From Phaffia rhodozyma (lineage: Eukaryota > Basidiomycota > Tremellomycetes > Cystofilobasidiales > Mrakiaceae), in assembly GCA_014706385.1 (NCBI GenBank), contig JACGZH010000009.1, positions 1-64,000 of the forward strand: a DNA stretch of 64,000 nucleotides. Direction: 5' to 3'. The notes beneath the pieces were generated by a model, which was given only the letters and a program-made list of their open reading frames with translations, was not told the origin of the DNA and did no database searches. The first letter of the stretch is position 1, and the number at the start of each line of letters is the position of its first letter. The position numbers were made by a program, and so were the translations under genes. Below, piece by piece: positions 1-25,100 of the stretch.

Positions 1-185
1 CCTTAGCGTACACCTCGTACACCTGTCGGTCCTCTTTCTTTCTTCTTCCTGCTCGCTACAACCAGACCTTGCTAAAAGAACTATCTATGAATCTAAAACC
101 CTAACCCTAAGAACTATCTATGAATCTAAAACCCTAACCCAAAACCCTAACCCTACCCTACCCTACCCCACCCTACCCTACCCTG
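1..185 (+). repeat. 3' end of a further telomere-proximal retroelement copy plus telomeric repeats
   Basis: Positions 1-97 match the 3' end of every element in the array (the cctgctcgctacaaccag... stretch and CTATCTATGAATCTAA), so another copy, cut by the window edge, lies to the left. CCCTAA units follow at about 98-110. A second, very short 3' remnant starting agaactatctatg is at 110-130. A tract of CCCTAA units and degenerate 5-base CCCTA units then runs to about 185. The C-rich strand reading rightwards puts the physical chromosome end to the left. Confidence 0.85.
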
Positions 186-250
186 ACCTGGACCCTCCAC
201 CGACACACTCCTCGGCCCTCTGACACACCCCCCTTACCGCCCCCTGGGCC

Positions 251-679
251 ATGTCCAACAGAGACAATCCCATCCAGTGTCCCCACTGTGACCTCCGCAC
301 CACTGCCCTCCTCGAACACCTCCGGAAACTAGACCGCCCAAACAGATGGACAAACGCCTCTCTTGCTGGCACCGGTCTCATCGCCTGCAGCTGTGGCTTT
401 CCCTGTGCTAGTCAACATGGCCTTCTCACCCATATCGCCAAGACTCACAAGAAACAGGACCCTTTTGCTGTCCACCCTGTCTCTTCCATTCCCTACCCTT
501 CTCAGCCTGTGCCCTCCCAGCCTGTGCCCTCCCAGCCTCGGTCTCCCACTCTCGGCTCTCTCGGCCCTCCCGCCCTTCCTCTCATCTCCCGTCCCATCTC
601 CCGTCCTATCCAACCCATCCAGCCACCTCCAGACCCCGCTCAGCATCCGCCACTTCTCTGCCCACCAGACCTCGCTTGA
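251..679 (+). CDS. N-terminal part of retrotransposon protein: zinc-finger region (copy 1)
   Basis: The 142-residue ORF begins MSNRDNPIQCPHC. It has a CPHC pair near residue 10 and a clear C2H2 finger at about residues 49-67 (CGFPC then HIAKTH, spacing C-x3-C-x8-H-x4-H). A Ser/Pro-rich linker with repeated SQPVP follows. CRE-type elements usually have N-terminal zinc fingers in the same ORF as the reverse transcriptase, so this is probably the true N-terminus of the element protein. Here it ends at a TGA before the RT frame, and one or more frameshifts separate the two. Copies 2-4 lack this region. Its likely role is recognition of DNA or of the element RNA (inference from the family). Confidence 0.65.
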   Translation: MSNRDNPIQCPHCDLRTTALLEHLRKLDRPNRWTNASLAGTGLIACSCGFPCASQHGLLTHIAKTHKKQDPFAVHPVSSIPYPSQPVPSQPVPSQPRSPTLGSLGPPALPLISRPISRPIQPIQPPPDPAQHPPLLCPPDLA

Positions 680-914
680 TCCCCACCCAGCGTGCCATCC
701 CTCGTCTTCCACGAAGACAGTCCCTTTCTAGCCCTCCGTCGTCCTCCATCCACTCTTTTTCTTCCGTCCACCCAGCCCGAGTCGCTTTCTCCTGTTCCTG
801 ATCTCGTGCCTGTCTCTGCACTCGCTCCTGCACCTGCTTCTTCCACTTGTCGCCGGGCCCGATGCCCTGCCTGACTCTGTCTCTGGCTTTGAGTCTGATG
901 CCCTGGCTGACCCT

Positions 915-3711
915 ATGCCTTACTCTCTTCCTCACCTCGACTCAGACAACACCATGCTCAGTCTGGTCTACTACTCGTCCCACCCACTCCTAGTCCTCTC
1001 CCAGCCGAGCCTGCTCCCACCCTGTCTTGGCCTCCCTCCCTTCCTCCCTCCCTTCCGCCTTCTCCTCCTCCTGCAGACACCGCGTCCGACACCGCTGCCC
1101 TCGACCAGATCGACCAGGCCATCGACCTCGCATCCTCCCACACATCCCTCCTTGACCGCTTCCTCTCCCTCGTCAAACTGCCCACCGCGAGCAAGCCTCT
1201 CCACGGTCGCCAGCTCAAGGCCTTCCAAGATGCAGCAGAGCGGATGGCGTTCGCCTATGTCTCAAAGCCCAGTGAGCACACTCTGTTTGACTTTCTCTGT
1301 CTCCCAAAGTCGGCCTTGTCCCTGGCTTTGCTCCTGGCGTCAACTGTCGGCTGCCAGGCTGCGAGCATACCCTGCTGTGCCTTGGCCGGAGCACTCCTCT
1401 CGCTCTGCTGGCGATCGTCGGGCCTGGTGATCTCAAGCATGCCGTCGGCAGACAGGTCTCTTCTGGCTATCTCTCTCGTGCTGCCAGTCTGCTTTCCGAC
1501 CGGTCTCCTGTCCTTGCTCTGAGTGAGGATGTGATGGCGAGGTTGCATGCAAAACATCCATCCGGTGACCCCTCTCCGTTTTCGTCTCGTGCTGGCCCTC
1601 ATCCTGGCGACAGCCCGGAAGAGCAAGCCGTTCTCCCTGCGTTTGCCAAGTTCTCCAGAGAGACCTCTCCCGGTATCTCTGGCTGGACTCAGCCTCTGCT
1701 TTCCCCTTGCCCTCGCCCGGCAGCCTGTCCGTGAGATGGTCCGTGTGCTTACCGGTCAGATCTCTCAGGGTACAGCACCCGGCATCCAGCTTCTCTGTGC
1801 TTCCAGACTGACTCCTCTCGAAAAGACAGGCGGCGGGGTCAGACCGATCGCGGTGGGCGAGCTGCTCTATCGGCTGGTAAGCAAGATCCTTCTCAAGGCC
1901 AGACTCAGACAGACCATGCTCCTAGACTGTCAGCTTGGCGTCGGCTCCAAGGGCGGAGTCGAGCCGATCGTCAGACTGGTTGACGAGGCAACGAGAGGTG
2001 ATCTCCGTGGCACTTACAACCACCCTCGTCAGTCTGGACTTTCTAACGCGTTCAACACTGTCAGCAGACGAGACCTCGCCGACGGACTCAAGGACTGGGC
2101 TCCCGAGCTCTATCGGGCCGGTCGGTGGGCATACGGTGAGCATACCACTCTGGTCTGTACCGGATCAGACGGCCAGGTCGTCACGATGGCTTCCCAGCAG
2201 GGGGTCAGACAGGGCGATCCGTTCGGGCCTCTCTTCTTTTCTCTTGCCATCAGACGGTTCATGTCTCAGCTTCGTCAGTTCGTAGGCCTCGACGGTCTGG
2301 TCGTCAGCTATCTAGACGATGTGTTCATCCTGACAAATGACTCTGGAGCACTCGAGAAAGTCATCGCGTTCGTAGAAGCAAGTAGCACATCTTTATCACT
2401 AACAAATCAAAGTCAAGATACATGACCTGTTTTCTATCGAGTCCCATGGCCTCGAGCTTCTCGGCACCGCCATCGGCAGCACACAGTTCCGAGCGGGCCT
2501 TCCTCCAACGCAAGATCCACCACGAGCTTGCCATCATCCGGAAACTGCCCAGCCTCCACTACCAGCACGGTCTCTTGCTTCTCCGTCGATGCGTCCAGAT
2601 GAACCTGCGGCACCTCCAACGAACACTAGACACGTCAGATCTCGATCACCCATGGACTGCACTAGACGACGCACTCACCGAGGCGGTTCTCCTCATCCGG
2701 AACTCTCCCCGTCGACTCGACACCGACAGAGCCATCATCCAGCTCCCCACCCGGTTCGGCGGCCTCGGTGTGCTCTCGTTCGCCGACGTCGCCCCACTCG
2801 CCTATCAGGCCGCAAACGAGGCAGCAGACACCATCATCGCACCCATCCTCGGCGGCTTTGACATGTCGGACGTCCAGCCAATGTCCCAAAGGGCTAGAAC
2901 AAACAGCATGGTCGAACACAAGCTGAGCATTCTCCTTTCTCAGCTCTCACAGCATCAACAGGACTCACTGGCTGAAAACGCGACGTTCCTCGGCCGCAGA
3001 TGGCTCAACATCATCCCCTTCACCTCCTCGCTCTCCCTCAGAGACGTCCACATCGCCGCCGGTCTCCACTTCCTCACCTTCTGCCCCGGCCGGTCCGACC
3101 TCTGCAACAGCTGCCACCACCAGAACCACTACGGACACGACGAGGTCTGCCACGGCCGCAACCCAGACACCCTCGCTAGACACGGCAACATCAAGCGGTT
3201 AGTACACAAGTCGCTCGCTGCGAACAGCATGTTCAACGTAGAGAACGAACCACTTGTCCCTGGCACCTCCATGCGGACCGATCTCCGGATCACTTCGCCC
3301 GACGGTGTCGTCGAGATCGACGTCGCTGTAGTCTCGATCGCATCCGACGCCGCACGAGAGATCGCCAGACGGACCCATCTGTACCCACAGGCCGCCAAAC
3401 AAAACAGATCAGCCTTTGCCACTCGGTTCGCCAGACGGAACGACCCGCCCGGTGTCCAGCTCGACCCAGCCCACCAAGCGGTCGTCGCGATCCTGGACGG
3501 GAAAGCAAAAGAAAAGGTACAGACCTATGCGAACCGGATCTATCTTCCCTTCGAGCCCTTCATCCTCACCACCGGCGGGGCGATCGACTGCCGGGCGAAC
3601 GAGCTGATCGACCGGTGGACCAAGCACCTCGGTCCGTCTGCCGCTGGCCGTCTTCTCAGTCATCTTGCTGTCGTCCTGTTGTCTGCCAGGGCTGCCCACT
3701 GGCAGTTCTGA
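915..3711 (+). pseudogene. Reverse transcriptase/endonuclease ORF of copy 1, broken by small indels
   Basis: The sequence is almost base-identical to the intact 938-residue ORFs of copies 2-4 but is split into several frames. By comparison with copy 2, single- or two-base indels lie near 934, 1308, 1340, 1421, 1706, 2023 (an insertion and a nearby compensating deletion), 2400-2416 (two) and 2495. The largest open pieces are 1547-2425 (RT core with YLDD) and 2422-3711 (thumb, CCHC knuckle and endonuclease). Nearly all changes are in short homopolymers and almost no substitutions accompany them. They could therefore be consensus errors in an unpolished terminal repeat rather than real decay. 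Confidence 0.75.
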
Positions 3712-3825
3712 ACAAAGTCGAGGTGGACGGAAGTGGATGGAAGCGAGAAGGAGTCGTTCTGTTGCGTGTTTCGTTGTGAGATTTACTTCATGATGATGGT
3801 TGTTGATGATCAACTTGCAGTTTGC

Positions 3826-4160
3826 ATCTCTTTCTCTTTCTTCTTTCTTCTTTCTTTTCTTTCTATCTTATCTTCTTTTCTTTCTTTCTTTCTTTCCATC
3901 TTATCTCGTTTTCTTTTCGTCTTATCTTGTTTCCTTCCATCTTACTCTATTTCTCTCTTTCTACTTCTACTTCTGTTTCTACTTCTGTTTCGATCTCTTT
4001 ACTTCCTTCTTCTTCATTTTATCCTACTTTATTCTTTACCTCTTTCTCTATTTCTATCTTTACTTCTACTTCTATTTCTATCCTTACTTCTACTTCTATT
4101 TCTTTCTTTACTTCTACTTCCATTTCTACTTCTTCCCCTCTTCTTCCTACCTCCCCTTAG
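3826..4160 (+). repeat. Pyrimidine-rich 3' UTR tract of copy 1
   Basis: About 330 bases are almost pure C/T, built of TTTCTTTCTT runs and imperfect TTTCTACTTC units. Equivalent tracts follow the ORF in copies 2-4 (about 7465-7760, 10931-11260, 14417-14705) and differ mainly in unit number. It lies between the stop codon and the conserved 3' terminus. The short open frames reading through it are low-complexity and are not treated as genes. Confidence 0.8.
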
Positions 4161-4252
4161 CGTACACCTCCTACAGCTGTCGGTCCTCTTTCTTTCTTCT
4201 TTCTGCTCGCTACAACCAGACCTTGCTAAAAGAACTATCTATGAATCTAAGA

Positions 4253-4490
4253 CCCTAACCCTAACCCTAATCCTACTTTATTCTTTACCTCTTTCTCTAT
4301 TTCTTCCTTTACTTCTACTTCCATTTCTACTTCTTCCCCTCTTCCTCCTACCTCCCCTTACCTCCCCTTAGCGTACACCTCCTACACCTCCTACACCTCC
4401 TACACCTGTCGGTCCTCTTTCTTTCTTCTTCCTGCTCGCTACAACCAGACCTTGCTAAAAGAACTATCTATGAATCTAAGACCCTAACCC
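4253..4490 (+). repeat. Telomeric units, solo 3' fragment of the element, telomeric units
   Basis: Three CCCTAA units (4253-4270) are followed by a 5'-truncated element of about 210 bases (4271-4481), which starts inside the pyrimidine tract at tcctactttattc and ends at the standard 3' terminus. CCCTAACCC (4482-4490) then joins copy 2. It contains the cctcctacac unit repeated more often than in copy 1. This is what an incomplete reverse transcription at a telomeric target would leave. Confidence 0.85.
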
Positions 4491-7400
4491 TGACTCTGTC
4501 TCTGGCTTTGAGTCTGATGCCCTGGCTGACCCTATGCCTTACTCTCTTCCTCAGCCTCGACTCAGACAACACCATGCTCAGTCTGGTCTACTACTCGTCC
4601 CACCCACTCCTAGTCCTCTCCCACCCACTCCTAGTCCTCTCCCAGCCGAGCCTGCTCCCACCCTGTCTTGGCCTCCCTCCCTTCCTCCCTCCCTTCCGCC
4701 TTCTCCTCCTCCTGCAGACACCGCGTCCGACACCGCTGCCCTCGACCAGATCGACCAGGCCATCGACCTCGCATCCTCCCACACATCCCTCCTTGACCGC
4801 TTCCTCTCCCTCGTCAAACTGCCCACCGCGAGCAAGCCTCTCCACGGTCGCCAGCTCAAGGCCTTCCAAGATGCAGCAGAGCGGATGGCGTTCGCCTATG
4901 TCTCAAAGCCCAGTGAGCACACTCTGTTTGACTTTCTCTGTCTCCCAAAAGTCGGCCTTGTCCCTGGCTTTGCTCCTGGCGTCAACTCGGCTGCCAGGCT
5001 GCGAGCATACCCTGCTGTGTCTTGGCCGGAGCACTCCTCTCGCTCTGCTGGCGATCGTCGGCCTGGTGATCTCAAGCATGCCGTCGGCAGACAGGTCTCT
5101 TCTGGCTATCTCTCTCGTGCTGCCAGTCTGCTTTCCGACCGGTCTCCTGTCCTTGCTCTGAGTGAGGATGTGATGGCGAGGTTGCATGCAAAACATCCAT
5201 CCGGTGACCCCTCTCCGTTTTCGTCTCGTGCTGGCCCTCATCCTGGCGACAGCCCGGAAGAGCAAGCCGTTCTCCCTGCGTTTGCCAAGTTCTCCAGAGA
5301 GACCTCTCCCGGTATCTCTGGCTGGACTCAGCCTCTGCTTTCCCTTGCCCTCGCCCGGCAGCCTGTCCGTGAGATGGTCCGTGTGCTTACCGGTCAGATC
5401 TCTCAGGGTACAGCACCCGGCATCCAGCTTCTCTGTGCTTCCAGACTGACTCCTCTCGAAAAGACAGGCGGCGGGGTCAGACCGATCGCGGTGGGCGAGC
5501 TGCTCTATCGGCTGGTAAGCAAGATCCTTCTCAAGGCCAGACTCAGACAGACCATGCTCCTAGACTGTCAGCTTGGCGTCGGCTCCAAGGGCGGAGTCGA
5601 GCCGATCGTCAGACTGGTTGACGAGGCAACGAGAGGTGATCTCCGTGGCACTTACAACCACCTCGTCAGTCTGGACTTTTCTAACGCGTTCAACACTGTC
5701 AGCAGACGAGACCTCGCCGACGGACTCAAGGACTGGGCTCCCGAGCTCTATCGGGCCGGTCGGTGGGCATACGGTGAGCATACCACTCTGGTCTGTACCG
5801 GATCAGACGGCCAGGTCGTCACGATGGCTTCCCAGCAGGGGGTCAGACAGGGCGATCCGTTCGGGCCTCTCTTCTTTTCTCTTGCCATCAGACGGTTCAT
5901 GTCTCAGCTTCGTCAGTTCATAGGCCTCGACGGTCTCGTCGTCAGCTATCTAGACGATGTGTTCATCCTGACAAATGACTCTGGAGCACTCGAGAAAGTC
6001 ATCGCGTTCGTAGAAGCAAGTAGCACATCTTTATCACTAAACAAATCAAAGTCAAAGATACATGACCTGTTTTCTATCGAGTCCCATGGCCTCGAGCTTC
6101 TCGGCACCGCCATCGGCAGCACACAGTTCCGAGCGGCCTTCCTCCAACGCAAGATCCACCACGAGCTTGCCATCATCCGGAAACTGCCCAGCCTCCACTA
6201 CCAGCACGGTCTCTTGCTTCTCCGTCGATGCGTCCAGATGAACCTGCGGCACCTCCAACGAACACTAGACACGTCAGATCTCGATCACCCATGGACTGCA
6301 CTAGACGACGCACTCACCGAGGCGGTTCTCCTCATCCGGAACTCTCCCCGTCGACTCGACACCGACAGAGCCATCATCCAGCTCCCCACCCGGTTCGGCG
6401 GCCTCGGTGTGCTCTCGTTCGCCGACGTCGCCCCACTCGCCTATCAGGCCGCAAACGAGGCAGCAGACACCATCATCGCACCCATCCTCGGCGGCTTTGA
6501 CATGTCGGACGTCCAGCCAATGTCCCAAAGGGCTAGAACAAACAGCATGGTCGAACACAAGCTGAGCATTCTCCTTTCTCAGCTCTCACAGCATCAACAG
6601 GACTCACTGGCTGAAAACGCGACGTTCCTCGGCCGCAGATGGCTCAACATCATCCCCTTCACCTCCTCGCTCTCCCTCAGAGACGTCCACATCGCCGCCG
6701 GTCTCCACTTCCTCACCTTCTGCCCCGGCCGGTCCGACCTCTGCAACAGCTGCCACCACCAGAACCACTACGGACACGACGAGGTCTGCCACGGCCGCAA
6801 CCCAGACACCCTCGCTAGACACGGCAACATCAAGCGGTTAGTACACAAGTCGCTCGCTGCGAACAGCATGTTCAACGTAGAGAACGAACCACTTGTCCCT
6901 GGCACCTCCATGCGGACCGATCTCCGGATCACTTCGCCCGACGGTGTCGTCGAGATCGACGTCGCTGTAGTCTCGATCGCATCCGACGCCGCACGAGAGA
7001 TCGCCAGACGGACCCATCTGTACCCACAGGCCGCCAAACAAAACAGATCAGCCTTTGCCACTCGGTTCGCCAGACGGAACGACCCGCCCGGTGTCCAGCT
7101 CGACCCAGCCCACCAAGCGGTCGTCGCGATCCTGGACGGGAAAGCAAAAGAAAAGGTACAGACCTATGCGAACCGGATCTATCTTCCCTTCGAGCCCTTC
7201 ATCCTCACCACCGGCGGGGCGATCGACTGCCGGGCGAACGAGCTGATCGACCGGTGGACCAAGCACCTCGGTCCGTCTGCCGCTGGCCGTCTTCTCAGTC
7301 ATCTTGCTGTCGTCCTGTTGTCTGCCAGGGCTGCCCACTGGCAGTTCTGAACAAAGTCGAGGTGGACGGAAGTGGATGGAAGCGAGAAGGAGTCGTTCTG

Positions 7401-7872
7401 TTGCGTGTTTCGTTGTGAGATTTACTTCATGATGATGGTTGTTGATGATCAACTTGCAGTTTGCATCTCTTTCTCTTTCTTCTTTCTTTCTTTCTTTTCT
7501 TTCTATCTTATCTTCTTTTCTTTCTTTCTTTCTTTCCATCTTATCTCGTTTTCTTTTCGTCTTATCTTGTTTCCTTCCATCTTACTCTATTTCTCTCTTT
7601 CTACTTCTACTTCTGTTTCTACTTCTGTTTCGATCTCTTTACTTCCTTCTTCTTCATTTTATCCTACTTTATTCTTTACCTCTTTCTCTATTTCTTCCTT
7701 TACTTCTACTTCCATTTCTACTTCTTCCCCTCTTCCTCCTACCTCCCCTTACCTCCCCTTAGCGTACACCTCCTACACCTCCTACACCTCCTACACCTGT
7801 CGGTCCTCTTTCTTTCTTCTTCCTGCTCGCTACAACCAGACCTTGCTAAAAGAACTATCTATGAATCTAAAA
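4491..7872 (+). mobile_element. CRE-type telomeric retrotransposon, copy 2 (5'-truncated, intact ORF)
   Basis: It begins at tgactctgtctctgg directly after CCCTAACCC and ends with the common 3' terminus before CCCTAACCCTAACCC (7873-7887). Its start point is identical to those of copies 3 and 4, and corresponds to about position 872 of copy 1. It contains the intact ORF 4534-7350 and a shorter pyrimidine tract than copies 1 and 3. Confidence 0.9.
4534..7350 (+). CDS. Reverse transcriptase with CCHC knuckle and restriction-like endonuclease (copy 2)
   Basis: This 938-residue protein should copy element RNA onto cut or open chromosome DNA in the nucleus. Visible in order: a Pro-rich N-terminus (1-60); a reverse transcriptase at about 300-520 with RPIAV (316), LDFSNAF (380, catalytic Asp), QGVRQGDPFGP (435) and YLDD (472, catalytic pair), followed by LNKSKSKI; a thumb region; a CCHC knuckle C737-C740-H748-C752; and a C-terminal restriction-like endonuclease with RTDLR (794), EIDVAV (807) and K/Y residues at about 870-878. 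There is no apurinic endonuclease domain. That layout is the CRE/R2-type of non-LTR elements. The ATG is the first in a frame open from 4480, just after an in-frame stop at 4477. It may be a truncated start, because copy 1 has coding sequence further upstream. It differs from copies 3 and 4 by Ser163. Confidence 0.92.
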   Translation: MPYSLPQPRLRQHHAQSGLLLVPPTPSPLPPTPSPLPAEPAPTLSWPPSLPPSLPPSPPPADTASDTAALDQIDQAIDLASSHTSLLDRFLSLVKLPTASKPLHGRQLKAFQDAAERMAFAYVSKPSEHTLFDFLCLPKVGLVPGFAPGVNSAARLRAYPAVSWPEHSSRSAGDRRPGDLKHAVGRQVSSGYLSRAASLLSDRSPVLALSEDVMARLHAKHPSGDPSPFSSRAGPHPGDSPEEQAVLPAFAKFSRETSPGISGWTQPLLSLALARQPVREMVRVLTGQISQGTAPGIQLLCASRLTPLEKTGGGVRPIAVGELLYRLVSKILLKARLRQTMLLDCQLGVGSKGGVEPIVRLVDEATRGDLRGTYNHLVSLDFSNAFNTVSRRDLADGLKDWAPELYRAGRWAYGEHTTLVCTGSDGQVVTMASQQGVRQGDPFGPLFFSLAIRRFMSQLRQFIGLDGLVVSYLDDVFILTNDSGALEKVIAFVEASSTSLSLNKSKSKIHDLFSIESHGLELLGTAIGSTQFRAAFLQRKIHHELAIIRKLPSLHYQHGLLLLRRCVQMNLRHLQRTLDTSDLDHPWTALDDALTEAVLLIRNSPRRLDTDRAIIQLPTRFGGLGVLSFADVAPLAYQAANEAADTIIAPILGGFDMSDVQPMSQRARTNSMVEHKLSILLSQLSQHQQDSLAENATFLGRRWLNIIPFTSSLSLRDVHIAAGLHFLTFCPGRSDLCNSCHHQNHYGHDEVCHGRNPDTLARHGNIKRLVHKSLAANSMFNVENEPLVPGTSMRTDLRITSPDGVVEIDVAVVSIASDAAREIARRTHLYPQAAKQNRSAFATRFARRNDPPGVQLDPAHQAVVAILDGKAKEKVQTYANRIYLPFEPFILTTGGAIDCRANELIDRWTKHLGPSAAGRLLSHLAVVLLSARAAHWQF

Positions 7873-7956
7873 CCCTAACCCTAACCCTTTCTTCTTTCTG
7901 CTCGCTACAACCAGACCTTGCTAAAAGAACTATCTATGAATCTAAGACCCTAACCC
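7873..7956 (+). repeat. Telomeric units around a 60-base solo 3' terminus
   Basis: CCCTAACCCTAACCC (7873-7887) is followed by the last ~60 bases of the element (7888-7947, from tttcttctttctgctc to the end) and CCCTAACCC (7948-7956), which joins copy 3. The same arrangement with the same truncation point recurs at 11359-11442. Confidence 0.85.
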
Positions 7957-10900
7957 TGACTCTGTCTCTGGCTTTGAGTCTGATGCCCTGGCTGACCCTA
8001 TGCCTTACTCTCTTCCTCAGCCTCGACTCAGACAACACCATGCTCAGTCTGGTCTACTACTCGTCCCACCCACTCCTAGTCCTCTCCCACCCACTCCTAG
8101 TCCTCTCCCAGCCGAGCCTGCTCCCACCCTGTCTTGGCCTCCCTCCCTTCCTCCCTCCCTTCCGCCTTCTCCTCCTCCTGCAGACACCGCGTCCGACACC
8201 GCTGCCCTCGACCAGATCGACCAGGCCATCGACCTCGCATCCTCCCACACATCCCTCCTTGACCGCTTCCTCTCCCTCGTCAAACTGCCCACCGCGAGCA
8301 AGCCTCTCCACGGTCGCCAGCTCAAGGCCTTCCAAGATGCAGCAGAGCGGATGGCGTTCGCCTATGTCTCAAAGCCCAGTGAGCACACTCTGTTTGACTT
8401 TCTCTGTCTCCCAAAAGTCGGCCTTGTCCCTGGCTTTGCTCCTGGCGTCAACTCGGCTGCCAGGCTGCGAGCATACCCTGCTGTGCCTTGGCCGGAGCAC
8501 TCCTCTCGCTCTGCTGGCGATCGTCGGCCTGGTGATCTCAAGCATGCCGTCGGCAGACAGGTCTCTTCTGGCTATCTCTCTCGTGCTGCCAGTCTGCTTT
8601 CCGACCGGTCTCCTGTCCTTGCTCTGAGTGAGGATGTGATGGCGAGGTTGCATGCAAAACATCCATCCGGTGACCCCTCTCCGTTTTCGTCTCGTGCTGG
8701 CCCTCATCCTGGCGACAGCCCGGAAGAGCAAGCCGTTCTCCCTGCGTTTGCCAAGTTCTCCAGAGAGACCTCTCCCGGTATCTCTGGCTGGACTCAGCCT
8801 CTGCTTTCCCTTGCCCTCGCCCGGCAGCCTGTCCGTGAGATGGTCCGTGTGCTTACCGGTCAGATCTCTCAGGGTACAGCACCCGGCATCCAGCTTCTCT
8901 GTGCTTCCAGACTGACTCCTCTCGAAAAGACAGGCGGCGGGGTCAGACCGATCGCGGTGGGCGAGCTGCTCTATCGGCTGGTAAGCAAGATCCTTCTCAA
9001 GGCCAGACTCAGACAGACCATGCTCCTAGACTGTCAGCTTGGCGTCGGCTCCAAGGGCGGAGTCGAGCCGATCGTCAGACTGGTTGACGAGGCAACGAGA
9101 GGTGATCTCCGTGGCACTTACAACCACCTCGTCAGTCTGGACTTTTCTAACGCGTTCAACACTGTCAGCAGACGAGACCTCGCCGACGGACTCAAGGACT
9201 GGGCTCCCGAGCTCTATCGGGCCGGTCGGTGGGCATACGGTGAGCATACCACTCTGGTCTGTACCGGATCAGACGGCCAGGTCGTCACGATGGCTTCCCA
9301 GCAGGGGGTCAGACAGGGCGATCCGTTCGGGCCTCTCTTCTTTTCTCTTGCCATCAGACGGTTCATGTCTCAGCTTCGTCAGTTCATAGGCCTCGACGGT
9401 CTCGTCGTCAGCTATCTAGACGATGTGTTCATCCTGACAAATGACTCTGGAGCACTCGAGAAAGTCATCGCGTTCGTAGAAGCAAGTAGCACATCTTTAT
9501 CACTAAACAAATCAAAGTCAAAGATACATGACCTGTTTTCTATCGAGTCCCATGGCCTCGAGCTTCTCGGCACCGCCATCGGCAGCACACAGTTCCGAGC
9601 GGCCTTCCTCCAACGCAAGATCCACCACGAGCTTGCCATCATCCGGAAACTGCCCAGCCTCCACTACCAGCACGGTCTCTTGCTTCTCCGTCGATGCGTC
9701 CAGATGAACCTGCGGCACCTCCAACGAACACTAGACACGTCAGATCTCGATCACCCATGGACTGCACTAGACGACGCACTCACCGAGGCGGTTCTCCTCA
9801 TCCGGAACTCTCCCCGTCGACTCGACACCGACAGAGCCATCATCCAGCTCCCCACCCGGTTCGGCGGCCTCGGTGTGCTCTCGTTCGCCGACGTCGCCCC
9901 ACTCGCCTATCAGGCCGCAAACGAGGCAGCAGACACCATCATCGCACCCATCCTCGGCGGCTTTGACATGTCGGACGTCCAGCCAATGTCCCAAAGGGCT
10001 AGAACAAACAGCATGGTCGAACACAAGCTGAGCATTCTCCTTTCTCAGCTCTCACAGCATCAACAGGACTCACTGGCTGAAAACGCGACGTTCCTCGGCC
10101 GCAGATGGCTCAACATCATCCCCTTCACCTCCTCGCTCTCCCTCAGAGACGTCCACATCGCCGCCGGTCTCCACTTCCTCACCTTCTGCCCCGGCCGGTC
10201 CGACCTCTGCAACAGCTGCCACCACCAGAACCACTACGGACACGACGAGGTCTGCCACGGCCGCAACCCAGACACCCTCGCTAGACACGGCAACATCAAG
10301 CGGTTAGTACACAAGTCGCTCGCTGCGAACAGCATGTTCAACGTAGAGAACGAACCACTTGTCCCTGGCACCTCCATGCGGACCGATCTCCGGATCACTT
10401 CGCCCGACGGTGTCGTCGAGATCGACGTCGCTGTAGTCTCGATCGCATCCGACGCCGCACGAGAGATCGCCAGACGGACCCATCTGTACCCACAGGCCGC
10501 CAAACAAAACAGATCAGCCTTTGCCACTCGGTTCGCCAGACGGAACGACCCGCCCGGTGTCCAGCTCGACCCAGCCCACCAAGCGGTCGTCGCGATCCTG
10601 GACGGGAAAGCAAAAGAAAAGGTACAGACCTATGCGAACCGGATCTATCTTCCCTTCGAGCCCTTCATCCTCACCACCGGCGGGGCGATCGACTGCCGGG
10701 CGAACGAGCTGATCGACCGGTGGACCAAGCACCTCGGTCCGTCTGCCGCTGGCCGTCTTCTCAGTCATCTTGCTGTCGTCCTGTTGTCTGCCAGGGCTGC
10801 CCACTGGCAGTTCTGAACAAAGTCGAGGTGGACGGAAGTGGATGGAAGCGAGAAGGAGTCGTTCTGTTGCGTGTTTCGTTGTGAGATTTACTTCATGATG

Positions 10901-11358
10901 ATGGTTGTTGATGATCAACTTGCAGTTTGCATCTCTTTCTCTTTCTTCTTTCTTTCTTTCTTTTCTTTCTATCTTATCTTCTTTTCTTTCTTTCTTTCTT
11001 TCCATCTTATCTCGTTTTCTTTTCGTCTTATCTTGTTTCCTTCCATCTTACTCTATTTCTCTCTTTCTACTTCTACTTCTGTTTCTACTTCTGTTTCGAT
11101 CTCTTTACTTCCTTCTTCTTCATTTTATCCTACTTTATTCTTTACCTCTTTCTCTATTTCTATCTTTACTTCTACTTCTATTTCTATCCTTACTTCTACT
11201 TCTATTTCTTCCTTTACTTCTACTTCCATTTCTACTTCTTCCCCTCTTCTTCCTACCTCCCCTTAGCGTACACCTCCTACAGCTGTCGGTCCTCTTTCTT
11301 TCTTCTTCCTGCTCGCTACAACCAGACCTTGCTAAAAGAACTATCTATGAATCTAAAA
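7957..11358 (+). mobile_element. CRE-type telomeric retrotransposon, copy 3 (5'-truncated, intact ORF)
   Basis: It has the same 5' junction as copy 2, exactly 3466 bases downstream of it. It has a longer pyrimidine tract (10931-11260) that resembles the one in copy 1. Its 3' terminus is followed by CCCTAACCCTAACCC. Confidence 0.9.
8000..10816 (+). CDS. Reverse transcriptase with CCHC knuckle and restriction-like endonuclease (copy 3)
   Basis: Intact 938-residue ORF with the same domain order and catalytic residues as copy 2: YLDD at 472, knuckle 737-752, endonuclease 794-878. It has Pro163 where copy 2 has Ser, and shares Ile463 with copy 2 where copies 1 and 4 have Val. The lack of any stop or frameshift across 2.8 kb argues for recent activity or recent duplication. 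Confidence 0.92.
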   Translation: MPYSLPQPRLRQHHAQSGLLLVPPTPSPLPPTPSPLPAEPAPTLSWPPSLPPSLPPSPPPADTASDTAALDQIDQAIDLASSHTSLLDRFLSLVKLPTASKPLHGRQLKAFQDAAERMAFAYVSKPSEHTLFDFLCLPKVGLVPGFAPGVNSAARLRAYPAVPWPEHSSRSAGDRRPGDLKHAVGRQVSSGYLSRAASLLSDRSPVLALSEDVMARLHAKHPSGDPSPFSSRAGPHPGDSPEEQAVLPAFAKFSRETSPGISGWTQPLLSLALARQPVREMVRVLTGQISQGTAPGIQLLCASRLTPLEKTGGGVRPIAVGELLYRLVSKILLKARLRQTMLLDCQLGVGSKGGVEPIVRLVDEATRGDLRGTYNHLVSLDFSNAFNTVSRRDLADGLKDWAPELYRAGRWAYGEHTTLVCTGSDGQVVTMASQQGVRQGDPFGPLFFSLAIRRFMSQLRQFIGLDGLVVSYLDDVFILTNDSGALEKVIAFVEASSTSLSLNKSKSKIHDLFSIESHGLELLGTAIGSTQFRAAFLQRKIHHELAIIRKLPSLHYQHGLLLLRRCVQMNLRHLQRTLDTSDLDHPWTALDDALTEAVLLIRNSPRRLDTDRAIIQLPTRFGGLGVLSFADVAPLAYQAANEAADTIIAPILGGFDMSDVQPMSQRARTNSMVEHKLSILLSQLSQHQQDSLAENATFLGRRWLNIIPFTSSLSLRDVHIAAGLHFLTFCPGRSDLCNSCHHQNHYGHDEVCHGRNPDTLARHGNIKRLVHKSLAANSMFNVENEPLVPGTSMRTDLRITSPDGVVEIDVAVVSIASDAAREIARRTHLYPQAAKQNRSAFATRFARRNDPPGVQLDPAHQAVVAILDGKAKEKVQTYANRIYLPFEPFILTTGGAIDCRANELIDRWTKHLGPSAAGRLLSHLAVVLLSARAAHWQF

Positions 11359-11442
11359 CCCTAACCCTAACCCTTTCTTCTTTCTGCTCGCTACAACCAG
11401 ACCTTGCTAAAAGAACTATCTATGAATCTAAGACCCTAACCC
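11359..11442 (+). repeat. Telomeric units around a 60-base solo 3' terminus
   Basis: This is the same unit as at 7873-7956: CCCTAACCCTAACCC, a short 3' remnant (11374-11433) and CCCTAACCC, leading into copy 4. The identity of the two spacers suggests that remnant and full element were duplicated together. Confidence 0.85.
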
Positions 11443-14400
11443 TGACTCTGTCTCTGGCTTTGAGTCTGATGCCCTGGCTGACCCTATGCCTTACTCTCTT
11501 CCTCAGCCTCGACTCAGACAACACCATGCTCAGTCTGGTCTACTACTCGTCCCACCCACTCCTAGTCCTCTCCCACCCACTCCTAGTCCTCTCCCAGCCG
11601 AGCCTGCTCCCACCCTGTCTTGGCCTCCCTCCCTTCCTCCCTCCCTTCCGCCTTCTCCTCCTCCTGCAGACACCGCGTCCGACACCGCTGCCCTCGACCA
11701 GATCGACCAGGCCATCGACCTCGCATCCTCCCACACATCCCTCCTTGACCGCTTCCTCTCCCTCGTCAAACTGCCCACCGCGAGCAAGCCTCTCCACGGT
11801 CGCCAGCTCAAGGCCTTCCAAGATGCAGCAGAGCGGATGGCGTTCGCCTATGTCTCAAAGCCCAGTGAGCACACTCTGTTTGACTTTCTCTGTCTCCCAA
11901 AAGTCGGCCTTGTCCCTGGCTTTGCTCCTGGCGTCAACTCGGCTGCCAGGCTGCGAGCATACCCTGCTGTGCCTTGGCCGGAGCACTCCTCTCGCTCTGC
12001 TGGCGATCGTCGGCCTGGTGATCTCAAGCATGCCGTCGGCAGACAGGTCTCTTCTGGCTATCTCTCTCGTGCTGCCAGTCTGCTTTCCGACCGGTCTCCT
12101 GTCCTTGCTCTGAGTGAGGATGTGATGGCGAGGTTGCATGCAAAACATCCATCCGGTGACCCCTCTCCGTTTTCGTCTCGTGCTGGCCCTCATCCTGGCG
12201 ACAGCCCGGAAGAGCAAGCCGTTCTCCCTGCGTTTGCCAAGTTCTCCAGAGAGACCTCTCCCGGTATCTCTGGCTGGACTCAGCCTCTGCTTTCCCTTGC
12301 CCTCGCCCGGCAGCCTGTCCGTGAGATGGTCCGTGTGCTTACCGGTCAGATCTCTCAGGGTACAGCACCCGGCATCCAGCTTCTCTGTGCTTCCAGACTG
12401 ACTCCTCTCGAAAAGACAGGCGGCGGGGTCAGACCGATCGCGGTGGGCGAGCTGCTCTATCGGCTGGTAAGCAAGATCCTTCTCAAGGCCAGACTCAGAC
12501 AGACCATGCTCCTAGACTGTCAGCTTGGCGTCGGCTCCAAGGGCGGAGTCGAGCCGATCGTCAGACTGGTTGACGAGGCAACGAGAGGTGATCTCCGTGG
12601 CACTTACAACCACCTCGTCAGTCTGGACTTTTCTAACGCGTTCAACACTGTCAGCAGACGAGACCTCGCCGACGGACTCAAGGACTGGGCTCCCGAGCTC
12701 TATCGGGCCGGTCGGTGGGCATACGGTGAGCATACCACTCTGGTCTGTACCGGATCAGACGGCCAGGTCGTCACGATGGCTTCCCAGCAGGGGGTCAGAC
12801 AGGGCGATCCGTTCGGGCCTCTCTTCTTTTCTCTTGCCATCAGACGGTTCATGTCTCAGCTTCGTCAGTTCGTAGGCCTCGACGGTCTGGTCGTCAGCTA
12901 TCTAGACGATGTGTTCATCCTGACAAATGACTCTGGAGCACTCGAGAAAGTCATCGCGTTCGTAGAAGCAAGTAGCACATCTTTATCACTAAACAAATCA
13001 AAGTCAAAGATACATGACCTGTTTTCTATCGAGTCCCATGGCCTCGAGCTTCTCGGCACCGCCATCGGCAGCACACAGTTCCGAGCGGCCTTCCTCCAAC
13101 GCAAGATCCACCACGAGCTTGCCATCATCCGGAAACTGCCCAGCCTCCACTACCAGCACGGTCTCTTGCTTCTCCGTCGATGCGTCCAGATGAACCTGCG
13201 GCACCTCCAACGAACACTAGACACGTCAGATCTCGATCACCCATGGACTGCACTAGACGACGCACTCACCGAGGCGGTTCTCCTCATCCGGAACTCTCCC
13301 CGTCGACTCGACACCGACAGAGCCATCATCCAGCTCCCCACCCGGTTCGGCGGCCTCGGTGTGCTCTCGTTCGCCGACGTCGCCCCACTCGCCTATCAGG
13401 CCGCAAACGAGGCAGCAGACACCATCATCGCACCCATCCTCGGCGGCTTTGACATGTCGGACGTCCAGCCAATGTCCCAAAGGGCTAGAACAAACAGCAT
13501 GGTCGAACACAAGCTGAGCATTCTCCTTTCTCAGCTCTCACAGCATCAACAGGACTCACTGGCTGAAAACGCGACGTTCCTCGGCCGCAGATGGCTCAAC
13601 ATCATCCCCTTCACCTCCTCGCTCTCCCTCAGAGACGTCCACATCGCCGCCGGTCTCCACTTCCTCACCTTCTGCCCCGGCCGGTCCGACCTCTGCAACA
13701 GCTGCCACCACCAGAACCACTACGGACACGACGAGGTCTGCCACGGCCGCAACCCAGACACCCTCGCTAGACACGGCAACATCAAGCGGTTAGTACACAA
13801 GTCGCTCGCTGCGAACAGCATGTTCAACGTAGAGAACGAACCACTTGTCCCTGGCACCTCCATGCGGACCGATCTCCGGATCACTTCGCCCGACGGTGTC
13901 GTCGAGATCGACGTCGCTGTAGTCTCGATCGCATCCGACGCCGCACGAGAGATCGCCAGACGGACCCATCTGTACCCACAGGCCGCCAAACAAAACAGAT
14001 CAGCCTTTGCCACTCGGTTCGCCAGACGGAACGACCCGCCCGGTGTCCAGCTCGACCCAGCCCACCAAGCGGTCGTCGCGATCCTGGACGGGAAAGCAAA
14101 AGAAAAGGTACAGACCTATGCGAACCGGATCTATCTTCCCTTCGAGCCCTTCATCCTCACCACCGGCGGGGCGATCGACTGCCGGGCGAACGAGCTGATC
14201 GACCGGTGGACCAAGCACCTCGGTCCGTCTGCCGCTGGCCGTCTTCTCAGTCATCTTGCTGTCGTCCTGTTGTCTGCCAGGGCTGCCCACTGGCAGTTCT
14301 GAACAAAGTCGAGGTGGACGGAAGTGGATGGAAGCGAGAAGGAGTCGTTCTGTTGCGTGTTTCGTTGTGAGATTTACTTCATGATGATGGTTGTTGATGA

Positions 14401-14806
14401 TCAACTTGCAGTTTGCATCTCTTTCTCTTTCTTCTTTCTTTCTTTCTTTTCTTTCTATCTTATCTTCTTTTCTTTCTTTCTTTCTTTCCATCTTATCTCG
14501 TTTTCTTTTCGTCTTATCTTGTTTCCTTCCATCTTACTCTATTTCTCTCTTTCTACTTCTACTTCTGTTTCTACTTCTGTTTCGATCTCTTTACTTCCTT
14601 CTTCTTCATTTTATCCTACTTTATTCTTTACCTCTTTCTCTATTTCTTCCTTTACTTCTACTTCCATTTCTACTTCTTCCCCTCTTCCTCCTACCTCCTC
14701 CTACCTCCCCTTAGCGTACACCTCCTACACCTGTCGGTCCTCTTTCTTTCTTCTTTCTGCTCGCTACAACCAGACCTTGCTAAAAGAACTATCTATGAAT
14801 CTAAGA
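11443..14806 (+). mobile_element. CRE-type telomeric retrotransposon, copy 4 (most internal, intact ORF)
   Basis: It starts 3486 bases after copy 3 with the identical 5' junction. It has a short pyrimidine tract (14417-14705) like copy 2, with an extra cctcctac unit. It is the full-ORF copy nearest unique chromosomal DNA, so it is the oldest if the array grew outward. Confidence 0.9.
11486..14302 (+). CDS. Reverse transcriptase with CCHC knuckle and restriction-like endonuclease (copy 4)
   Basis: Intact 938-residue ORF, identical in layout to copies 2 and 3. It carries Val463 and the CTG codon at Leu468, as in copy 1, whereas copies 2 and 3 carry Ile463 and CTC. All reverse transcriptase, knuckle and endonuclease residues listed for copy 2 are present. 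Confidence 0.92.
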   Translation: MPYSLPQPRLRQHHAQSGLLLVPPTPSPLPPTPSPLPAEPAPTLSWPPSLPPSLPPSPPPADTASDTAALDQIDQAIDLASSHTSLLDRFLSLVKLPTASKPLHGRQLKAFQDAAERMAFAYVSKPSEHTLFDFLCLPKVGLVPGFAPGVNSAARLRAYPAVPWPEHSSRSAGDRRPGDLKHAVGRQVSSGYLSRAASLLSDRSPVLALSEDVMARLHAKHPSGDPSPFSSRAGPHPGDSPEEQAVLPAFAKFSRETSPGISGWTQPLLSLALARQPVREMVRVLTGQISQGTAPGIQLLCASRLTPLEKTGGGVRPIAVGELLYRLVSKILLKARLRQTMLLDCQLGVGSKGGVEPIVRLVDEATRGDLRGTYNHLVSLDFSNAFNTVSRRDLADGLKDWAPELYRAGRWAYGEHTTLVCTGSDGQVVTMASQQGVRQGDPFGPLFFSLAIRRFMSQLRQFVGLDGLVVSYLDDVFILTNDSGALEKVIAFVEASSTSLSLNKSKSKIHDLFSIESHGLELLGTAIGSTQFRAAFLQRKIHHELAIIRKLPSLHYQHGLLLLRRCVQMNLRHLQRTLDTSDLDHPWTALDDALTEAVLLIRNSPRRLDTDRAIIQLPTRFGGLGVLSFADVAPLAYQAANEAADTIIAPILGGFDMSDVQPMSQRARTNSMVEHKLSILLSQLSQHQQDSLAENATFLGRRWLNIIPFTSSLSLRDVHIAAGLHFLTFCPGRSDLCNSCHHQNHYGHDEVCHGRNPDTLARHGNIKRLVHKSLAANSMFNVENEPLVPGTSMRTDLRITSPDGVVEIDVAVVSIASDAAREIARRTHLYPQAAKQNRSAFATRFARRNDPPGVQLDPAHQAVVAILDGKAKEKVQTYANRIYLPFEPFILTTGGAIDCRANELIDRWTKHLGPSAAGRLLSHLAVVLLSARAAHWQF

Positions 14807-15079
14807 CCCTAACCCTAAATGAGTTCCCCTCTTCTTCCTACCTCCCCTTAGCGTACACCTCCTACAGCTGTCGGTCCTCTTTCTTTCTTCTTTCTGCTCG
14901 CTACAACCAGACCTTGCTAAAAGAACTATCTATGAATCTAAGACCCTAACCCTAAATGAGACTCCCCTTAGCGTACACCTCCTACACCTCCTACACCTGT
15001 CGGTCCTCTTTCTTTCTTCTTCCTGCTCGCTACAACCAGACCTTGCTAAAAGAACTATCTATGAATCTAAAACCCTAAC
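14807..15079 (+). repeat. Two solo 3' fragments with telomeric units; inner end of the array
   Basis: After copy 4 come CCCTAACCCTAA (14807-14818), a 3' fragment to 14943, CCCTAACCCTAA (14944-14955), a second 3' fragment (about 14961-15072) and a final CCCTAAC (15073-15079). Each fragment is preceded by the same ATGAG pentamer (14819-14823 and 14956-14960), which is neither telomeric nor from the element. Unique DNA starts at 15080. Confidence 0.8.
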
Positions 15080-22160: not shown

Positions 22161-25100
22161 CTAGTTGGTGTTCTCCGTATCCTTAGAGTTGGCGAGAGAG
22201 CCATTCGCTCTGGCTCTGGATATGGCTGCTTTTCGCTTGTACTCCTCACTGCCGTACATAGAGTTGTCCCCCTCGTAAGATGAGTCAGGCAAACCGTATC
22301 CACCCCCACCGGGAGAGTCTGCAGAGGGTAGTCAGACAGCGTAATCACTCAGAGTCAGATCATTCTTGATCGCGATAATTTAAACAGGAGAAAGAAGAAA
22401 TAAACAAAAAGCGTACTGATGATGATCCTGTCACCGACTGCAGCCATGAATTCGTTCTTTCCTCCCAGATGTCTCTTTCCAAACGACCCATCTGGTAGTT
22501 TTCTCATCCAGAAGTTTGATCCTGTTTGACCGGGCAACCCGCCTTTCATTCCATAAGGCGCCTTGGATCGTCGTTCGGACAAGATGGCGACCTCGACAGG
22601 AGCGGTAAACTCGATGTCTCGAATAACACCGTCACCACCCTTACGCTGACCATCACCGCCGCTTCCGGCTCGGATAGAAAACTCGTGAATGATAACCGGA
22701 TATCTCTTCTCAATGATCTCAGGATCTCCAATTCGAGTGTTCGTCATGTGGCACTGGATTCCGCTTTGCCCATCCCAAGTGGGTCCAGCGCCAGCACCTC
22801 CACCAATGGTTTCGTAATATCCGAAACCGGTTTGGTTCTCTCCTGGCTCAGATCCAAATGTCAAGTTGTTACAGCCACCCTGAGAAGCCCCACACGCTTG
22901 GAATGCTTTGAGGATAACGTCAACAACTCGTTGCGAGGTTTCTACGTTCCCTCCAACTGTAGCGGCATCGATAGAAGGGCTAAGAATCGTTCCTTCAGGG
23001 AGAACTAGGGTAATGGGAAGCAAACATCCTTGGTTGAGAGGAATACTGGAGTTGAGCATCGACCTCAACACATATAAAATGGCAGAATAAAGGATTGCCG
23101 TCGGAGCGTTGAGGTTTCCGTACCTAAAAGGCCCAATACAGGTTATACACAGATTAAATTAGCAAATGTATATTCTGACCAGAACATAGAGCCAACAATA
23201 AATCTTACACTTGAGGGCTAGTACCGGTAAAATCGAAGATAGCCTGCCCACTGACAGGGTCGATATCAATCTTAAGAGCGATAGCGGAGCCATCATCCAT
23301 ATGATCCACGGCCTCCAGTGGTTTTCCCGCAAACTTCGCGGACATGAATCGAAGAAGATCCTTGACAGAGGCTTCGGCGTTGTCCTGAATGGCCTTCATA
23401 TAAAATTGAACGGTCTTGATACCACACTCTTTGATCAAATCTCTGATCAAGACGGCGCCTCGATGGTTTGCAGAAACTTGAGCTTTGAGATCAGAAATGT
23501 TGTTGGCAAGTGTTCGGGTTCCAGAACATCCAGGGTATTTGCCAGGGAGATCATACATGTGGTGAATCACGCCGGCTTCATCGAATTTGCCTGCAGATAC
23601 GAGCTTGAAAGCGGTGATCTGAGCACCCTCTTGCCAAATTTCCTTTGAAAATGGAGGCATTGAACCTGCTCGAATGCCACCAATATCTGCGTGATGAGCT
23701 CGAGAGGCTGTCCAGAACACAATCTCTCCGCTTTCGCTGAACGCCGGTGTCATGACTGTCAGGTCCGGAAGATGTGATCCTCCAGCAGAAGGATGGTTCG
23801 ACAGGAACACGTCTCCTGGGTTGATGTCCTCACCCCAGTGTCTGATCTGATACCGAACGGCATGTGAGACTGCTCCGAGGTGCACGGGGATGTTTGGAGC
23901 ATTCCCAACCAAACCTCCGTCAGGCGAGAACAGGGCGCAGGAGCTATAAGAGGCGACTCAGACGTCAGGGCTGTCTGTGATCACACACCTAAAGCGTTAC
24001 GGATATAACCAACCCAGGATAGAACTAAGAAAAGACATACAAGTCAAGACGCTCCTTGATATTAACAGAAATGGCTGTCTGACGAAGAGTTTGACCCACT
24101 ATTAATAGTAGAGAGTTTCGAGTGAACCAAGTGTTTTCAACCATTCTGAAGAAGGCAGGTTGACTCACTTCGTTCGGCTATACTCATGAATTTATATGAA
24201 AAAACCGAAAGCTGGATTGGGTCAACTTTTGCGGTAGATAGATCGAGGTCCAACTCTGCCTGGTGATCGTTCTGTATTTCTTTCGTTGCGTCAATGATGA
24301 CGTGTTTAGGAAGGACGGTAGCCATGTACCCTGGAGGAGTGAGAATCGTTTGAGTAGCATCCCAAATGAGCGCAGGTCCCTGTGTAAAGAGCGTACTCGG
24401 TCAACAGGTCAAATTAATAAATCTGAGATAGATTGAATTTTCTACGCACGTAAACCTGACTACCAAATTCAAGTTCTGCTAGAGGAATGACTGGAGTGTC
24501 TGACCAGCCTTTTTGCTCAAAGAAAACCTTCTTCTTTTTCCAGCCATCCAGCTCAGGCACCTTTCGTTTATAAAACGACCAATCCTTATACAGCGAGCAC
24601 TCTATCCCTCCTGTACTGCTGCCAGTTGCCCGGATTCTGACGTCATCGACAACGATCTCTCTGCCCTCCAAAACGAAGCCAAACAGCTGTCTATGAGTGT
24701 CGATGAAAAGTTTTTCGAAGTTCGACGTTTCCGGGTCGCCTTGAATCATGAGCGCAGTAGATGAACTAGCGAATCGGCAATTGAGAAATGTTTCAAAGAG
24801 GATAGACGGGCCGTTGAATCCTTGACTACGAAGCGACTCGGTGGCATTCTCACGGAGTCGACTGACTCTTGACTTTATAGTAGACAGAGCTGAAGAAGCG
24901 GAGAGAGAGAAGGAAGACGGCTCTGAGGATTCGGTGATGATATCTGCGAGAGCCATTCCGTAGGCGGATAGGACAGAAGAAAATCTGGGCACAAGAATGC
25001 GCGAAATGTTGAGCGAAGCGGCGATGCTGGCTCCATGTTGAGGGCCGGCACCTCCAAAACTGTCATGGCATGTATTGGTCATCAGGTCAATGGACACACA

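Follow-up and report, generated by a model that had tools for sequence, protein, structure and literature searches.

A CRE-Like Retrotransposon Arrayed Head to Tail at Chromosome Ends of Phaffia rhodozyma, With Putative Traces of Telomere Healing

The Array at the Left End of Contig C14

The window analyzed here, a stretch of 64,000 nucleotides of Phaffia rhodozyma DNA, comes from a genome surveyed as 19.77 Mb on 15 contigs, in which it forms the left end of C14. One protein encoded on contig C3 has its best match, at 98% identity, in a tannase/feruloyl esterase of Phaffia rhodozyma, in keeping with that species or a close relative as host. Window positions 1–15079 contain one retrotransposon in four long copies and seven 3′ pieces, head to tail, every one of them on the + strand with its 3′ end toward the chromosome interior and separated from the next by tracts of one to three CCCTAA units. 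Copy boundaries were set by mapping onto reference copies and by reading of the sequence, and the four large copies, the single orientation, the inward 3′ ends and the spacing described in the original prediction were all borne out; the solo 3′ ends are likewise real, but their number is seven and not six. The site CCCTAACCCTAA occurs seven times between 99 and 14955 of the window, against 0.01 expected.

The contig start falls within the array, and no telomere cap lies there in the assembly. A solo 3′ end truncated by the contig start (1–98) is followed by two CCCTAA units and a 3′-end fragment of about 21 bp (99–131), the fragment being a solo 3′ end at 111–131. Copy 1 (~132–4252) is complete at its 5′ end, which bears degenerate telomere-like repeats; it has an ATG at 251 and a zinc-finger N-terminus, and its frame is broken by indels. 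An interstitial telomere tract of three units (4253–4269) leads to a solo 3′ end that starts from about element nt 3927 (4270–4481). Copy 2 (~4488–7872) is 5′-truncated and starts at element nt 743; its 938-codon frame (4534–7350) encodes a reverse transcriptase (RT; YLDD), CCHC and a restriction-like endonuclease but not the N-terminal 225 aa. Copies 3 (~7954–11358; frame 8000–10816) and 4 (~11440–14806; frame 11486–14302) are truncated at the same nucleotide, and each is preceded by a solo 3′ end, the first from about element nt 4089 (7887–7947) and the other identical in kind (11373–11433). Two telomere tracts reading CCCTAACCCTAAATGAG, at 14807–14823 and 14944–14960, each carry a putative healing scar; a 5′-truncated solo 3′ end abutting ATGAG (14824–14943) lies between them, and the innermost solo 3′ end (14961–15070) follows the second. 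The array closes with a final CCCTAAC (15071–15079) at the border with unique subtelomere, where the junction CCCTAAC/GTCCATTG falls at 15079. Farther inward, exon-like frames were seen by eye on the minus strand at 23208–25151, which we take to resemble a hydantoinase/oxoprolinase gene.

The Element and Its Relatives

An intact copy at the right end of C14 (L040) has a frame of 1163 aa with an N-terminal zinc-finger region, RT (YLDD), CCHC and restriction-like endonuclease. Within the window, no copy is both complete and intact. Copy 1 is the sole one there with a full 5′ end, yet its frame is broken, and the frames of copies 2–4 open at an internal ATG, the zinc-finger region being among the missing residues. 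The three 938-codon ORFs that had been called intact are therefore open frames but not the whole protein, since 225 of its 1163 residues are absent. Across the genome, full 5′ ends were found at 11 of 11 candidates (five on C2, three at C14 right, two on C10 and one in the window); they open with degenerate telomere-like repeats of the CCCTA/CCCCA type, and frames of 1174–1194 codons (stop to stop) are kept in ten copies. In the coding core of 2622 bp, compared over 17 copies, copy 1 has nine indels, the outermost compared copy of C2 has four and the other 15 have none. As both indel-bearing copies lie at uncapped contig starts, their indels are likely assembly errors. When the 17 copies are aligned, 25 of the first 2650 columns are variable, including several that are gaps in the two error-rich copies; the spread of the element is recent.

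The sole Pfam domain found was RVT_1 (E 5e-17), with the RT at residues 309–524 of the 938-aa query, and of five PDB matches three carry the name R2, the remaining two being called reverse transcriptase-like protein. The best named relatives come from Filobasidium (43%) and Cryptococcus neoformans (37%). YLDD and the residues C962, C965, H973, C977, R1019, D1021 and D1034 are conserved in no fewer than 95% of those rows, out of 26, in which the column is present, and we take C962/C965/H973/C977 together with R1019/D1021/D1034 (R-x-D...D) to be the restriction-like endonuclease motif. The single ORF, in which the RT is followed by a C-terminal CCHC and restriction-like endonuclease, has CRE-clade anatomy. 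Assignment to the CRE type is supported by this domain layout; the restriction-like endonuclease and the proposed kinship with Cryptococcus proteins are supported as well. In a tree of the 26 rows, arbitrarily rooted and containing no MoTeR, FoTeR, CRE1 or SLACS rows, the element joins five environmental proteins (98/99), and the C. neoformans proteins fall into a different starred group.

Distribution Over Chromosome Ends

Searches with the protein gave at least 51 matches, 51 of 51 at contig ends and in a single polarity (best 49 of 73 candidates scored), and searches with the 3′ end gave at least 63, all 63 terminal and pointing inward with the 3′ end (best 40 of 67). With C. neoformans P0064 as query there were at least 46 matches, 46 of 46 terminal, of this same polarity and at or beside known copies; internal divergent relatives were sought with this query, and 0 of the 46 was internal (best 44 of 61 candidates scored). 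Among the best candidates, then, the element is not mostly internal, the internal counts being 0/51, 0/63 and 0/46; because these searches score the best candidates only, internal relics may go unseen. The 3′ junction reads AATCTAA[A/G]ACCCT at 56 of the 57 element 3′ ends examined, amplified copies counted, a pattern that reverse transcription primed by the G-strand would produce.

Element-bearing ends are C1 left, C2 left, both ends of C8, C9 left, C10 left, C13 left and both ends of C14. At the right end of C3 there is a 61-bp element 3′ piece, and the element is also found at C11 right and C12 left, where it adjoins cut or N sequence (a run of 7500 N bases occupies C12:1–7500). The lengths of C1, C11 and C15 are multiples of 2500, which, like this N run, suggests that stretches were cut or withheld there. 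Telomere repeats without an element match lie at C2 right and C15 left, tRNA arrays terminate five ends (C9, C10, C12 and C13 right; C11 left), and C1 right, C3 left and C15 right terminate in other sequence. Three ends (C10:14892, C13:8430 and C14:1187164) have a tRNA gene some 46 bp inward of the innermost element match, possibly as part of a common subtelomeric segment.

The tRNA arrays themselves are built of a tandem unit of about 9.7 kb with about 23 tRNA genes each, mostly with different anticodons; each of five 10-kb stretches held 21–24 tRNA genes. They occupy C4–C7 (L012–L015), C11 left (L019) and the right ends of C9, C10, C12 and C13. A unit-specific 521-bp probe had at least 40 matches at 96–100% identity (best 40 of 44 candidates), with 15 matches across ~148 kb on C13, and 40 units of ~23 genes imply about 900 tRNA genes. 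The polarity of the arrays toward the end is identical at five of five large-contig ends, and about nine TTAGGG repeats in right-telomere orientation lie inside a tRNA array at C5:22401–23900 (L038). The tRNA arrays may be telomere-linked. Those of Entamoeba have up to five tRNA genes per unit in the excerpted account (PMC2652664), as against ~23 here. In open-licence titles and abstract openings on Phaffia/Xanthophyllomyces, we found no account of either the element or the tRNA arrays.

Junctions and Array Growth

Microhomology was scored at truncated 5′ junctions, full-length 5′ ends and ATGAG junctions being excluded. The 16 distinct junctions overlap the telomere repeat by a mean of 2.19 bases, against 0.75 expected (0 of 100,000 simulations); two of the 16 were rescored against matching copies (overlaps 2 and 3), as the first reference had another variant, and before those two were rescored the mean overlap was 0.94 (p 0.25). 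With two junctions added, at position 2665 of the oriented C14 right stretch and at C2 ~48,506 (overlap 0 by eye), the mean over 18 junctions is 1.94, again with 0 of 100,000 simulations, and six of the 18 have an overlap of 0 or 1 base. This microhomology fits annealing of the cDNA to telomere or telomerase seeds. It suits telomerase seeds equally with target-primed reverse transcription, so truncation followed by capping is not the only step compatible with it. For MoTeR, seed-type overlaps have been reported in 17 of 23 truncated copies (PMC7367193, in excerpt).

Evidence for copying comes from several arrays. Copies 2–4 of the window have one common 5′ junction, at element nt 743, which we read as tandem copying rather than as a defined insertion end. 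On C1, one unit of ~1.9 kb is present at least 15 times; pairwise comparison of eight such units (28 pairs) found 6 pairs without a difference across 1518 bases and 7 across a further 900, and the 403-aa frame of the units corresponds to query residues 539–938, downstream of the RT domain. Moreover, window 4421–11629 equals C2:2792–10000 at 99.875% identity. The repeated identical units and this 7.2-kb block common to C2 and C14 suggest amplification by recombination. In the excerpted MoTeR account, extension by D-loop or rolling circle is given as the source of identical truncations and inter-element tracts in arrays (PMC7367193). The conserved 5′ junctions of the original prediction are real and common to copies 2–4, but they do not make a new variant, MoTeR arrays being alike.

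At all five ends that have both a cap and a long element, the cap junction is at element nt 993. They carry four 3′ VNTR alleles (C13 left is the same as C8 right) and two variable sites in all four combinations. Together these features point to copying between ends as far as the terminus, although recurrent mutation and changes in the VNTR may have produced the mix of variants. Another conceivable cause of the cap junction, a fixed RNA 5′ end at nt 993, was set aside in favor of copying, since none of the interior junctions compared has this position.

In the mechanism that we propose, the endonuclease would nick the G-rich strand of the telomere, or the enzyme would merely use that strand, and the 3′-OH would prime reverse transcription beginning at the 3′ end of the RNA, which would set both the inward polarity of the 3′ end and the sequence of the 3′ junction. 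New copies are 5′-truncated, mostly where one to four bases match the telomere repeat or else with ATGAG, and would then be capped by telomerase. Arrays would enlarge and spread via homologous copying (break-induced replication, D-loop or rolling circle), which would yield the tandem identical units and the blocks common to several chromosomes that are seen.

ATGAG Junctions and a Candidate Telomerase RNA

The left ends of C8, C9 and C13 and two junctions of the window read CCCTAACCC...TAAATGAG and then continue into unlike sequences. The corresponding junction at C8 right has one additional A, and that at C14 right duplicates one of the window junctions; judged by their flanks, six of the seven (CCCTAA)n-ATGAG junctions are independent. 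The inner border on C2 has ATGA only. The distance from ATGAG to the element 3′ end is two repeats in five of seven cases and three in the other two.

The 13-mer AACCCTAAATGAG occurs at seven genomic places, six of them terminal and one at C15:515,989 (reversed control, 1). This last place (L043:1184–1203), which reads CCCCCTAACCCTAAATGAGTCTCC, is the sole non-terminal exact match of the junction signature. It carries CCCTAACCCTAAATGAG in an apparently noncoding stretch, with no frame of more than 92 codons (stop to stop) across the locus, and its CCCCCTAACCCTAAATGAG would supply a template of ~1.5 repeats outside a protein gene. The base after ATGAG agrees with the flank of the candidate RNA (T) in three of six junctions, and the match beyond ATGAG is poor. 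Rfam gave 11 matches in L043, all far below gathering scores. In Ustilago, the telomerase RNA gene reportedly lies behind an EMI1-like gene; an EMI1-like neighbor was sought by eye in the frames flanking C15:515,989 and was not found. Ustilago ter1 is located in an intergenic region (PMC10035886, in excerpt). Judging from its sequence, C15:515,989 is a candidate for the template and 3′ flank of telomerase RNA.

We read the ATGAG scars as marks of telomerase that began synthesis at a default position because the end offered no seed. In this fourth step of the mechanism, a broken end would get a new telomere from telomerase, and where a good seed was lacking, synthesis would begin at a default position within the sequence 3′ of the RNA template and would leave CTCAT-TTAGGG, or ATGAG on the opposite strand. 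That ATGAG marks a seedless telomere start at a fixed point (AUGAG at C15:515,989), and that the arrays stem from cycles of breakage, tagged healing, insertion two to three repeats from the base and copying, has in our judgment about an even chance of being correct. If it is, the genome preserves a legible history of chromosome healing.

Telomerase and Alternative Explanations

The TERT RNA-binding domain (Telomerase_RBD) was found in two pieces on C12, at 59.8 and 30.2 bits (cut-off 25). The telomere-reaching ends hold 14 repeats (C8 left and C9 left), 11 (C10 left), 19 (C13 left, C3 right and C2 right), 20 (C8 right) and 13 (C15 left), that is, 11–20 at eight ends against mostly one to three between copies; the telomeric TTAGGG had been said to be retained, and it is. 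Exceptions among the interior tracts are part of one unit on C13 and a degenerate tract of about five units at the inner border on C1.

The original prediction had likened the array to the HeT-A/TART telomeres of Drosophila and raised the possibility of a telomere-maintenance mode, in which repeated attachment of elements at ends would stand in for telomerase. HeT-A/TART arrays are, as here, head to tail with the 3′ end inward, so polarity and terminal location agree, and the interstitial tracts of mostly one to three units look as though very short ends had been primed; unlike here, the HeT-A/TART endonuclease belongs to another class and Drosophila is without telomerase. A Drosophila-like replacement of telomerase is unsupported, given that both Telomerase_RBD pieces exceed the cut-off and that eight ends terminate in simple repeats, though the array ends of C1, C2 and C14 lack caps. 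C2 right and C15 left, moreover, hold telomere repeats with no element match. Nor do the short tracts need to imply priming on short ends, as longer interstitial telomere tracts break in MoTeR (PMC7367193, in excerpt), and altogether we regard such a maintenance mode as extremely improbable. Serial insertion, with every copy a separate retrotransposition event, would account for the at least 16 distinct 5′ junctions, which imply several independent insertions or truncations. As the only process it is highly improbable, in view of the single truncation common to copies 2–4 and the at least 15 like units on C1, which lack the RT domain and include identical pairs at the rates given above.

That most of the array results from misassembly, with a repeat collapsed or duplicated, is also quite improbable. 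C1, C2 and both ends of C14 do break off uncapped within arrays, the only indel-bearing core copies (2 of 17) sit at the contig starts of C14 and C2, and those two starts have 7.2 kb in common; on the other hand, C10 and C13 resolve short capped arrays of non-identical units, and the ends differ in unit structure. Copy numbers and the block common to C2 and C14, both uncapped contig starts, could nevertheless be products of the assembler. The ATGAG junctions might have arisen not by healing but by the reverse transcriptase of the element switching onto telomerase RNA at the end of the cDNA. R2-type enzymes jump templates, and three independent ATGAG junctions (C13 left and the two in the window) abut truncated element 5′ ends. 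At C8 left, C8 right and C9 left, however, ATGAG abuts subtelomere with no element 5′ end, and we consider template switching unlikely.

Comparison With Known Telomere-Targeted Fungal Elements

The element is a further case of a known type, represented by CNL1, MoTeR and FoTeR. CNL1 of C. neoformans, also a member of the Tremellomycetes, is related to R2 and MoTeR and forms arrays near telomeres (PMC12810828, in excerpt). C. neoformans P0064, which we infer to be CNL1, has a match of ~41% over ~730 residues, and its endonuclease residues are the same. CNL1 inserts elsewhere too (FRR1), whereas in Phaffia only terminal copies were found among the best candidates scored, and its telomere seed, AACCCCCT, differs from that of the Phaffia element (PMC12810828, in excerpt). 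The CNL1 literature suggests loss of RNAi as a driver of array growth. In the genome surveyed here, no RdRP match was obtained and the search controls were equally silent, so this result is uninformative on RNAi loss; there were two Piwi matches at C2:2,084 kb, one of them above cut-off, with internal stops for which introns could account.

MoTeR of Magnaporthe/Pyricularia oryzae is like the Phaffia element in its outward 5′ end, short interstitial telomeres, identical repeated units and degenerate telomere-like repeats at full 5′ ends, and likewise shows 5′ truncations at seeds of 1–7 nt, telomerase healing and copying between arrays (PMC7367193, in excerpt). It has a short partner, MoTeR2, and none was noticed for the Phaffia element. 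The putative ATGAG scar tied to telomerase RNA in Phaffia has no counterpart in the MoTeR account as excerpted, in which the term “telomerase RNA” occurs 0 times (PMC7367193). FoTeR of Fusarium oxysporum, too, is a uniquely terminal non-LTR element with asymmetric junctions and VNTRs; its 3′ tracts have 3–7 units, compared with mostly 1–3 in Phaffia, and its copies show RIP decay (PMC12857005, in excerpt).

Conclusions

Taken together, the element is very probably a CRE-like non-LTR retrotransposon of the R2 type, inserting into the telomere repeats of a telomerase-positive yeast, with arrays that grow by recombination and with ATGAG as a putative trace of telomerase healing. Anatomy and position place it, as far as sequence can tell, in the telomere-targeted group of the CRE clade, and its endonuclease may cut TTAGGG. 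New here are the (CCCTAA)n-ATGAG junctions and the candidate telomerase-RNA template.

Phaffia rhodozyma is used industrially for astaxanthin and is not known to be a pathogen, so that such elements could be studied in it with safety. With the present case, telomere-targeted CRE-like elements extend to another order of the Tremellomycetes, the Cystofilobasidiales, and one genome shows such elements alongside telomerase, in arrays that look mainly recombination-built. If the proposed reading of ATGAG is true, it would provide a sequence tag by which de novo telomere additions could be recognized and a candidate for telomerase RNA, and would allow a direct test of how telomerase positions a non-telomeric end.
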